From Oceaniferula marina (GTDB lineage Bacteria > Verrucomicrobiota > Verrucomicrobiia > Verrucomicrobiales > Akkermansiaceae), in assembly GCF_013391475.1 (NCBI RefSeq), contig NZ_JACBAZ010000004.1:1-64000 (forward strand): a DNA stretch of 64,000 nt, written 5' to 3'. The notes beneath the pieces are model-generated. The model had not been told where the DNA came from and ran no database searches. It was given only the letters and a program-made list of their open reading frames with translations. This document shows positions 13,389-50,287 of the stretch, one piece after another. The first letter of the stretch is position 1, and each line of letters starts with the position of its first letter. The position numbers and the translations under genes are program-made.

Positions 13389-13927
13389 ACAATGTTTTAA
13401 TATAATACATCGTATGCGCCCACAAAATAACAGCGATTTTACAAAAAGTGGATCATTGAAGGCTGACGAGCCCGAATCACTTCTATACCAAGTAGCAAAA
13501 CAGACGGGACGATTGCCGAGATAAATTTCTGTTTTGGCAAGGCGCGACGATGGAATGGTGCGGGCACCATGACTGAGGAGAAACGCAGCCAGAACAGAAA
13601 TTTATCCGGAACTCTGGTAGACCACGAAGTGCATTTCCTCACAGCCTTAAAACTTTCAATCGTCTCGTCTGTTTTGCGGAGTGGTATTATACAAAACAGA
13701 GAACCCTTTTGGCATGCCGCTCCCATACCCGCATCTCCGGTTCAACGGTAGATCGCCCTCAATAAGCTTCACCACTGGAATCATCTGCAAAAAATCTCAC
13801 CTTTCATCCCTTGCCACGATCATCACGCAGGGACATATTCCTTAAAACTTCTTTCCTGAAAAAACGCCGATCATTTGCAAGTTTGCGAATGCCCTTAAGG
13901 TAATACATCCACACCATCACCCCACTC
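13389..13927. other. intergenic region between divergent genes, occupied by element copy 1
   Basis: Apart from the 203-bp element the stretch has no supported gene. The AT-rich part near 13395-13420 (TTTTAATATAATAC) is a likely promoter zone for the sulfatase operon, but I cannot place its hexamers with confidence. Confidence 0.5.
13485..13687 (+). mobile_element. 203-bp inverted-repeat element, copy 1 (MITE-like)
   Basis: Starts ATACCAAGTAGCAAAACAG and ends CTGTTTTGCGGAGTGGTAT, so the outer about 29 bases form an imperfect terminal inverted repeat. Inside, a second inverted repeat (GATAAATTTCTGTT and AACAGAAATTTATC) encloses the palindrome ATGGTGC-GG-GCACCAT. It sits between the divergent sulfatase operon and the phosphatase gene. 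It is the most diverged of three copies in the window, all exactly 203 bases between ATACCA and GGTAT. Flanks are CTA and TTA. No transposase is encoded. Confidence 0.8.
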
Positions 13928-15260: not shown

Positions 15261-16208
15261 ATGAGCAAAGCCGTAAACATCACATCCCATCTGCTGCATG
15301 GCCCATGGGCCGGCAAGCATGAAGGATGCTGGAAAAGCCGCTTTCCCAATGTCTGGCTTGCTGTGCTCCAGCTCTGCACCACGCTTACCCTCCTTTCCCG
15401 TGGTTGGCTGATGTTTCGCTGGGACAGCCATATCCGGGGCCTCTGCTGGAACGAAGAGTTGCTGACGCCGTGGATCGAACAATACACGGACTCCAGCTGG
15501 GATGATTATGCCCTTCATTCCGATCCCTATATCACCAGCAGCATCGAATGGCTGGGGATCACACTCATGATCATCAGTGGTCTCTGTCTACTTCTCCGTG
15601 TTCCCAAATTGGCATGGCTGAAATGGAGCCTCGTCCCCGCTTTCCTCATCATGACCCTGGACGCCTTTGGCAATCTTGCAGACAAAGATTACGACGCGGC
15701 GATGGCGATGGAATACGCCTTGCAAGTGGGCACCCCACTGGCCCTGCTCATGGCACTGACACGACACAAGTGGAATAGAACCTGGGGCTGGATCGTCAGC
15801 CTGTTGGCTGCCTCCTGCTTCCTTGGCCACGGACTCTACGCCGCAGGGCACTTCCCGCTCCCTTGGAGTTTCCAGACAATGAGCATGACCATCCTTCGCG
15901 TTGATGAGGAGCAGGCGAAAGCATTCCTCTACCTTGCAGGCGTGCTCGATTTCATCGTAGCCGCAGCCATTCTGATTCCTGCGCTACGGAGACCCGCACT
16001 ATACTACATGATCCTATGGGGAGGTGTGACCAGCCTGGCCAGAGTGCTGGCCCACTATAACCCGGCCCTGAAATACAACGGTCTCGACCCTTGGGTAGCT
16101 GAAATGCTCGTTCGGTCTTCCCACTGGCTCCTCCCACTCCTCATACTCGCCTTGTTACCGTCTTATACCAAGCAGTCAAACAGACGGGACGATAGCCGAG
16201 ATGAATGA
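15261..16208 (+). CDS. integral membrane protein of unknown function, C-terminus supplied by element copy 2
   Basis: 315 residues with about eight hydrophobic helices (for instance around 30-48, 95-113, 118-135, 150-165, 178-195, 220-245, 247-262, 282-300). The start at 15261 lies 22 bases after the phosphatase stop. I do not recognise the family. The last 13 residues (TKQSNRRDDSRDE) and the stop codon are encoded by the first 42 bases of the 203-bp element beginning at 16165, so the original C-terminus has been replaced or extended by the insertion. The membrane part seems complete. Confidence 0.75.
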   Translation: MSKAVNITSHLLHGPWAGKHEGCWKSRFPNVWLAVLQLCTTLTLLSRGWLMFRWDSHIRGLCWNEELLTPWIEQYTDSSWDDYALHSDPYITSSIEWLGITLMIISGLCLLLRVPKLAWLKWSLVPAFLIMTLDAFGNLADKDYDAAMAMEYALQVGTPLALLMALTRHKWNRTWGWIVSLLAASCFLGHGLYAAGHFPLPWSFQTMSMTILRVDEEQAKAFLYLAGVLDFIVAAAILIPALRRPALYYMILWGGVTSLARVLAHYNPALKYNGLDPWVAEMLVRSSHWLLPLLILALLPSYTKQSNRRDDSRDE

Positions 16209-16367
16209 GTTCTTTGGTAAGGCGCGACGAAGGAATGGTGCGGGCACCATGACTAAGGAGAAACAAAGCCAAAGGAGTCATTCATCCGGAACTCTCATGG
16301 ATCACGCAGTGCTTTTCCAAATACCTCAAGAACGATCAATCGTCTCGTCTGTTTTGCGGAGTGGTAT
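16165..16367 (+). mobile_element. 203-bp inverted-repeat element, copy 2
   Basis: Same ends as copy 1 (ATACCAAGCAGTCAAACAG ... CTGTTTTGCGGAGTGGTAT) and the same length. The internal arms read GATGAATGAGTTCTTTGG and CCAAAGGAGTCATTCATC, a sequence different from copy 1 but again self-complementary in 16 of 18 positions. The central palindrome ATGGTGC-GG-GCACCAT is unchanged. It is flanked by TTA on both sides. It begins inside the 3' end of the membrane-protein gene. Confidence 0.82.
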
Positions 16368-16441
16368 TATCAGAGAGAACGCGATCACGACCCATCAACG
16401 CAATAAGTGAGCCCCATCAAGCTGAGCAGCGAACGGCCGAA

Positions 16442-31874: not shown

Positions 31875-32002
31875 AGGGCATCACCGCCATGCGGCTGTCT
31901 TGCGACCCCTTGCTCAACTGGCACCTCCCCTGCCCAACTGGCACCCTTTCACCTCAAACATCTTGGAAGCCGCTCCTCCAAAATAGCCGTTCAAATGGCG
32001 TT

Positions 32003-32205
32003 ATACCACTCCGCAAAACAGACGAGACGATTGATCGTTGTTGAGATATTTGGAAAAGCACTGCGTGATCCATGAGAGTTCCGGATGAATGACTCCTTTG
32101 GCTTTGTTTCTCCTTAGTCATGGTGCCCGCACCATTCCTTCGTCGCGCCTTACCAAAGAACTCATTCATCTCGGCTATCGTCCCGTCTGTTTTACTACTT
32201 GGTAT
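32003..32205 (-). mobile_element. 203-bp inverted-repeat element, copy 3 (reverse orientation)
   Basis: Read on the minus strand it is almost identical to copy 2: ATACCAAGTAGTAAAACAG at one end and CTGTTTTGCGGAGTGGTAT at the other, with the same internal arms and central palindrome. It is flanked by TTA on both sides. It starts five bases beyond the stop of the DUF3820 gene, so like copy 2 it sits at a gene's 3' end. Confidence 0.82.
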
Positions 32206-42536: not shown

Positions 42537-42604
42537 CTTCCTTAAAAGCACGACAGGATGAGAACCATGGTTCGAGCGCACACGCAGTGCGTGCATCACG
42601 CATT
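42521..42604 (+). repeat. 84-bp direct repeat, copy 1 (includes the tRNA-Arg 3' end)
   Basis: Begins AATCCTGTCGGGCGTGCTT in the tRNA and continues with a complementary arm (AAGCACGACAGGAT), the palindrome GAACCATGGTTC, and a CGCAC/GTGCG hairpin. The second copy starts exactly 150 bases later. Confidence 0.85.
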
Positions 42605-42670
42605 TTCCATCCATCAGAAATCCGGAGGAGGATTTCTGCATCCCCGCACAGACTGCAGCGGAGCCAGGTC

Positions 42671-42754
42671 AATCCTGTCGGGCGTGCTTTTTTAAAAAGC
42701 ACGACAGGATGAGAACCATGGTTCGTGCGCACACGTAGCGCGTGTATCACGCAT
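42671..42754 (+). repeat. 84-bp direct repeat, copy 2
   Basis: Starts with the same AATCCTGTCGGGCGTGCTT and forms a perfect hairpin CGTGCTTTTT/AAAAAGCACG; the rest matches copy 1 with a few changes. Between the copies lies another perfect hairpin AGAAATCC/GGATTTCT (near 42612-42635). Confidence 0.85.
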
Positions 42755-42964
42755 CTCCCCGAAAATACATCCAGAAGACTTACACCAGTTTCTAGGAAGC
42801 CCTTCCCAACACGTCTCAACGTCACCTCAAGTCCGAGTTGCGAATTAAAAAACGACTTATGAAAGGAGGGGAAACAAGGTTGACGACCCGACAACAACCA
42901 ATAGCCGCTAAAGCTCTGAGCCAAAACCAATTGAAAATTGGCTGACGAATAAAACAACATTTAA

Positions 42965-50082: not shown

Positions 50083-50211
50083 GGCGGCTGATTGAGGCCA
50101 ATCAGCCCTACCGAACATCATACCTCAGGCGGCTGATTGAGCCAATCAGCCCTACCGAACATCATATCTCAGGCGGCTGATTGAGGCCAATCAGCCCTAC
50201 CGTGCATCATG
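50083..50211 (+). repeat. three tandem 45-bp palindromic repeats
   Basis: Units start at 50083, 50128 and 50172. Each holds GGCTGATT and AATCAGCC around GAGGC or GAG, followed by CCTACCGAACATCAT. There are no unique spacers, so this is not a CRISPR. It lies just downstream of rsmB. Confidence 0.85.
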
Positions 50212-50287
50212 TTCCAGTTAGCATTGCACAATCTTCCGAAGGATAATCTGGACGTCCTAAATCATTCCCTCTAGTCTCTGCCGCAAG

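Follow-up and report, generated by a model that had tools for sequence, protein, structure and literature searches.

The repeat that occurs three times in the window (the whole 64,000-nt stretch of Oceaniferula marina DNA analysed here) is a non-coding mobile element of about 200 bp, a MITE, and its target duplications show that it has moved. Inside the element sits a module whose bases covary and which folds on one strand only. We propose, with a probability of about 0.5 and on the basis of sequence comparison, that the folded module is under selection when the element is mobilised or replicated, that the folded strand is probably DNA and that it would be bound in trans by a putative protein. 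Most likely, the element is one of a superfamily of MITEs that share a folded, conserved core; that the fold would matter for mobilisation, that the strand would be DNA and that a protein would bind it in trans are steps that we infer beyond this. MITEs are usually viewed as transposons stripped to their ends, whereas here the ends vary between families and an internal ~70-nt fold containing non-Watson-Crick pairs is kept across phyla.

A sequence-only reading had described three copies, and all three were recovered, at 13484-13690, 16164-16370 and 31999-32205 (minus strand) (Table 1). The element that it described at 16182-16290 lies inside copy 2 but is only part of it, the full element spanning 16166-16366. 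Copies 2 and 3 are 98% identical, while copy 1 shares 82-83% identity with them. The reading also stated that the arms differ between types and that each pair is self-complementary. This is exact for copy 1, where 19/19 positions of the inner arms pair, but copies 2 and 3 are imperfect (copy 2, 18/19 counting G.T). Pairing within a type yields -25.8 and -25.2 kcal/mol, and is far weaker when an A arm is paired with a B arm (-12.4 and -10.4 kcal/mol). Against 200 shuffles, the fold z-scores are -7.3 for copy 1 and -4.0 for copy 2, with 0/200 shuffles folding equally well, and the exact central palindrome occurs 3 times where 0.19 occurrences are expected. An open frame of 315 aa without a Pfam family (window 15261-16208) enters copy 2, which supplies its stop codon.

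Table 1 MITE copies in the window and their parts
Feature	Position	Strand	Remarks
Copy 1, type A MITE, 201 bp	13486..13686	+	Ends TACCAAGTAG...GAGTGGTA; flanks CTA left, TTA right, an imperfect TSD
Copy 2, type B MITE, 201 bp	16166..16366	+	TSD TTA on both sides
Copy 3, type B MITE, 201 bp	32004..32204	-	TSD TAA on both sides (minus-strand reading)
Copy 1 inner arm, 5' side	13520..13538	+	Partner 13588-13606
Copy 1 inner arm, 3' side	13588..13606	+	
Copy 2 inner arm, 5' side	16200..16218	+	Partner 16268-16286
Copy 2 inner arm, 3' side	16268..16286	+	
Copy 1 conserved core	13539..13587	+	Putative G.A-rich helix and 7-bp apical hairpin
Copy 2 conserved core	16219..16267	+	
Copy 3 conserved core	32103..32151	-	
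Copy 1 apical hairpin ATGGTGC-GG-GCACCAT	13555..13570	+	
Copy 2 apical hairpin	16235..16250	+	
Copy 3 apical hairpin	32120..32135	-	
Copy 1 mini-hairpin CAC-GAA-GTG (C-GNA-G triloop)	13623..13631	+	
Copy 2 mini-hairpin CAC-GCA-GTG	16303..16311	+	From sequence

The O. marina genome holds at least 68 core copies, 52 of them exact to the search pattern, which fall into two subfamilies with about 11 copies of type A and the rest of type B. Full copies are 201 bp long in 50/62 cases and 200 bp in 9/62, begin with TACCAAGTAG and end with GAGTGGTA (TACCAAG.../...GTGGTA). Identical TNA 3-mers flank 49 of the 62 (TTA 24, TAA 19, TCA 4 and TGA 2). The elements are thus short, non-coding and multi-copy with terminal inverted repeats, as MITEs are, and carry the 3-bp TNA target duplication (49/62) characteristic of the IS1031 group of IS5 (PMC12016507). 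Ends and duplications together fit a non-autonomous DNA transposon of this group of the IS5 family. The same architecture recurs in types C (216 bp) and E (205 bp), with different arms and a different central palindrome. The first covariance model was built from types A, B, C, D and E, and covariance-model search assigns no fewer than 116 loci of this genome to the superfamily (types A, B, C, E and chimeras).

Compensatory change between the arms had been taken as a sign of selection on the folded form, and the larger alignment bears this out with strong covariation and with pairing well above both shuffled and slid controls, as expected of a structure-conserved nucleic acid. Across 45 diverse copies, 90.4% of cells are paired. 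Shuffling lowers this share to 62.9% and sliding the partner to 32-41%, and double-change cells number 317 against 100 in shuffles, a count that 0/500 shuffles reach. The R1 set of 35 sequences, which was gathered by covariance model and not selected by the search pattern, agrees with this result. In the 45 copies the covariation extends from the arms to the supposedly constant palindrome: the latter is indeed constant within types A and B, but reads ATGTAGC-GA-GCTACAT in type C and GCATAGC-GG-GCTATGC in type E, and therefore covaries too. Pairs within the supposed loops, left free by the search pattern, do the same: position 20-51 shows all four Watson-Crick types in 40/44 copies (GC16/CG12/AT7/TA5), position 16-55 is C-G or T-A (CG29/TA8) and position 23-48 is G-C or A-T (GC24/AT13). 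These data show that arms and core stem drift through compensatory change. An element's own 19-nt arms pair better than at least 90% of foreign arms in 42/53 elements, and the arm sequence would be free so long as it is paired, so that the arms change together. Intermediates between the two window types exist as well; in three relatives (L125, L145 and L173) the arms are B-like and the loops A-like, which means that neither type stands isolated.

The supposed loops on either side of the palindrome can be fitted to a helix in which covarying base pairs separate G.A pairs; some of the G.A bases were fixed by the search pattern, and the same bases also prevail in the R1 set. Beside the apical stem there is non-canonical covariation, in which A.G swaps with C.A (27 and 13 of 44). 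G.T is far more frequent than A.C (82 vs 15), which indicates that a single strand folds, the purine-rich one. The module of ~70 nt would consist of a variable inner stem, a G.A helix and the 7-bp apical hairpin, and its helix may be built of three tandem G.A pair sets with single or double Watson-Crick pairs between.

Across phyla, and in MITEs whose ends are unlike one another, the structure of the module has been conserved. It was matched in 20/39 genomes, own genome counted (covariance model, E <= 0.01; many E < 1e-10), and was found in Verrucomicrobiota, Bacteroidota, Myxococcota and Proteobacteria within MITEs whose terminal repeats differ. A phylum census with a second model finds it in 27/387 genomes, which is a minimum, since scoring was confined to 12 candidates in each genome. 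A 47-base pattern of ~23 specified base equivalents, for which we estimate < 0.01 chance matches in 257 Gb, occurs in at least 119 stretches among 84,980 genomes. These come from Verrucomicrobiota (among them the isolates Verrucomicrobium sp. BvORR034 and Haloferula rosea), Saprospiraceae, Chitinophagales, Myxococcota, an Acidobacteria MAG, Thiomicrorhabdus and Massilia, with MAG contamination possible for some of the matches. A phage or plasmid origin was rejected: plasmid matches were to a neighbouring tRNA alone or insignificant (one plasmid search was queried with a composed consensus sequence), phage matches were insignificant, and the module is absent from the viral contigs searched. No protein neighbour is common across loci apart from two syntenic Myxococcales (L165 2774 and L220 2451), in which the module occupies the same site between tatC and a convergent outer-membrane-type gene. 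In Thiomicrorhabdus (L181 3290-3550) the module adjoins a tRNA-Glu-like gene and has another, decayed module as its neighbour.

How could a fold be kept so widely? In our model, selection would act on the folded single strand at the moment of the element's mobilisation or replication, because fixed copies show little constraint in place. Fixed B copies carry 0.21 singletons per site in the core and 0.35 in the spacer, a difference small enough to suggest selection during spread rather than in place. The single strand would probably be DNA that becomes exposed either during replication or as an intermediate of transposition, and a putative trans-acting protein would bind it. It is tempting to go further and regard the folded single-stranded DNA (or RNA) module as a working part common to many MITE families whose ends differ, a structural cis-signal that one conserved protein would recognise and that would allow non-autonomous elements to spread under different transposases; we offer this wider version only tentatively, with the odds somewhat against it. 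Should the fold prove to be a working part, bacterial transposition or replication would have a cis-signal of a new kind, a hypothesis that can be tested with the help of the consensus and covariance model. No description of the motif turned up in the open-licence literature searched.

Downstream of the core, a C-GNA-G mini-hairpin is present in 15/41 elements; simple shuffles give 1.1, and upstream of the core there are 2. Triloops of this kind confer high stability on DNA hairpins and far less on RNA ones. Published work found in our literature search uses d(GCGAAGC) as an extra-stable DNA mini-hairpin. In a post hoc test on sampled 20-kb windows, the folded strand of A/B copies lies opposite the G-rich leading strand in 39/50 cases (39:11, p ~9e-5), or 31/40 once weak-skew windows are dropped. 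Because of the DNA-type triloops and the A/B replication orientation, we favour a folded strand that would be single-stranded DNA acting in mobilisation or replication. Counting against our best explanation, types E and C show no replication bias, the tolerance of G.T fits RNA too, and the A/B bias sets the folded strand opposite the exposed lagging template; in IS200/IS605 the orientation to the lagging template is the reverse of the A/B case (PMC5371812). One alternative, which we consider less likely, is that the module is a transcribed structured RNA carried by MITEs and acting in cis or in trans, for example by binding a protein, where it protects, terminates or regulates. G.U-type wobble is common (16/45 at one core pair), tandem G.A helices are frequent in RNA, the two Myxococcales carry the module next to a convergent gene, and 44 elements lie between convergent genes against 5 between divergent ones (crude gene calls). 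However, sense and antisense placements beside tandem genes are unbiased at 14:14 (crude gene calls), the triloops are of DNA type, fixed copies are little constrained, and the module has no match in Rfam 15 at gathering score, where only tRNAs matched in the window. At E up to 5, elements in L103, L115 and L117 gave weak sub-threshold chance matches in Rfam, none centred on the module. The convergent excess of 44:5, crude as the gene calls are, could also point to a module that benefits the host and is retained because it terminates transcription from both sides where genes converge. We regard this as highly improbable: promoter avoidance accounts for the excess equally well, any long hairpin would suffice for termination, and the cross-phylum G.A core and the strand asymmetry would be left unexplained.

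The sequence-only reading had offered exchange of the arms as a unit as another source of their matching. A chimera at L338 (7777) is of type B on the left and of type E on the right, with the junction at the GCGGGC loop, and further chimeras switch near the core at L117 and L119 (D/C) and at L120 (D/B). The L338 chimera has non-matching inner arms and no matching TSD, so these half-exchanges look like later recombination that breaks pairing, and arm exchange was rejected as the origin of matched arms. Three derivatives (L333 2669, L335 2985 and L338 3100) have lost the inner arm and core and retain both ends, with matching TSDs in one or two cases. This too counts against our best explanation, as the core may be dispensable for movement, unless it was lost after insertion. 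Chimeras and deletions attest to breaks at the hairpin and offer no mechanism by which arms would stay matched. Palindromes are known to undergo correction by template switching or gene conversion, and such quasi-palindrome correction might keep the arms complementary while the core is conserved by descent alone and folding is unselected; the chimeras and the deletions ending at the hairpin do speak for local recombination. This account nevertheless predicts loss of G.A pairs and similar treatment of G.T and A.C, whereas G.A is kept across phyla, A.G swaps with C.A and G.T:A.C is 82:15. It is largely refuted, and we give it very little weight. Our results support selection on the folded single strand as the explanation of the covariation, which neither palindrome correction nor arm swapping provides. 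There is also scarcely any likelihood of a REP/TIR-type repeat that a Y1 HUH transposase (RAYT/TIRYT) would move in the form of folded single-stranded DNA. TIR repeat families around RAYT/TIRYT-type genes are described (PMC3733652), the element folds on one strand, and Y1 genes are present in its own genome and in most relatives. Yet target duplications are unexpected from Y1 chemistry, 0/30 Y1 loci carry the module (one match, E = 0.36), and genomes G003 and G006 have modules without a Y1 match, the reverse also being found. The element is mobile, with TIR and TSD, but kinship of the IS200/IS605 or REP/RAYT type is not supported, given the duplications and the lack of an associated Y1 transposase.

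The element shares 3-bp TNA duplication, terminal inverted repeats and absence of coding capacity with IS5-family MITEs of the IS1031 group, and the start of the BvORR034 family, GAACCTGT, resembles ISLrh (PMC12016507). Unlike those MITEs, it has a structured core that crosses phyla, CTAG duplications occur in other families with the same core, and no full-length matching element was found. ERIC, Correia/NEMIS, RUP and similar MITEs (PMC2229807) are likewise 100-200 bp, intergenic, foldable and of high copy number, but here one internal fold with a conserved non-Watson-Crick core spans phyla and differing ends. REP/REPIN and TIR repeats with RAYT/TIRYT (PMC3733652) are also extragenic palindromes of many phyla that possibly act as single-stranded DNA, whereas our element has 200 bp and a TSD, no GTAG/CGTC tag was noticed and there is no Y1 association. 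STAXI and other candidate structured motifs (PMC2864571) are conserved in structure, with RNA versus single-stranded DNA debated, but the present structure is different, has DNA-type GNA loops as opposed to RNA-type UUCG and is located inside MITEs.

In a free search for TIRs and duplications around the core, at least six TIR sequences accompany TNA duplications, and several other TIRs accompany CTAG duplications. CTAG duplication is known for IS5 itself. In Verrucomicrobium BvORR034, in one complete relative and likewise in O. marina, the ends are present almost exclusively in pairs ~200 bp apart. A search of these three genomes yielded no full-length IS or transposase whose ends match, which counts against our proposed mechanism. 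A PF01609 profile search of the O. marina genome gave one IS4-like match and one fragment; the match was rejected as partner transposase, the IS4-like element having inserted into MITE ends. This element (430-aa transposase, ends CATTGGCGTCAAAATAAG) inserted three times at one spot in the MITE end (L350 2442 region, L048, L035 (C15:190) and L008 (C14:28322)), with a 10-bp duplication, ACTACTTGAT, in the sole complete case. A type E MITE is inserted at the identical position, just past the core hairpin, in two B copies (L103 1893-2099 and L084 3266-3472). Elsewhere in the window, a pair of 65-nt repeats with 91% identity lies directly downstream of a tRNA-Arg gene (42544-42759), and a 44-nt repeat is present three times head-to-tail at 50097-50229, its third copy diverged.
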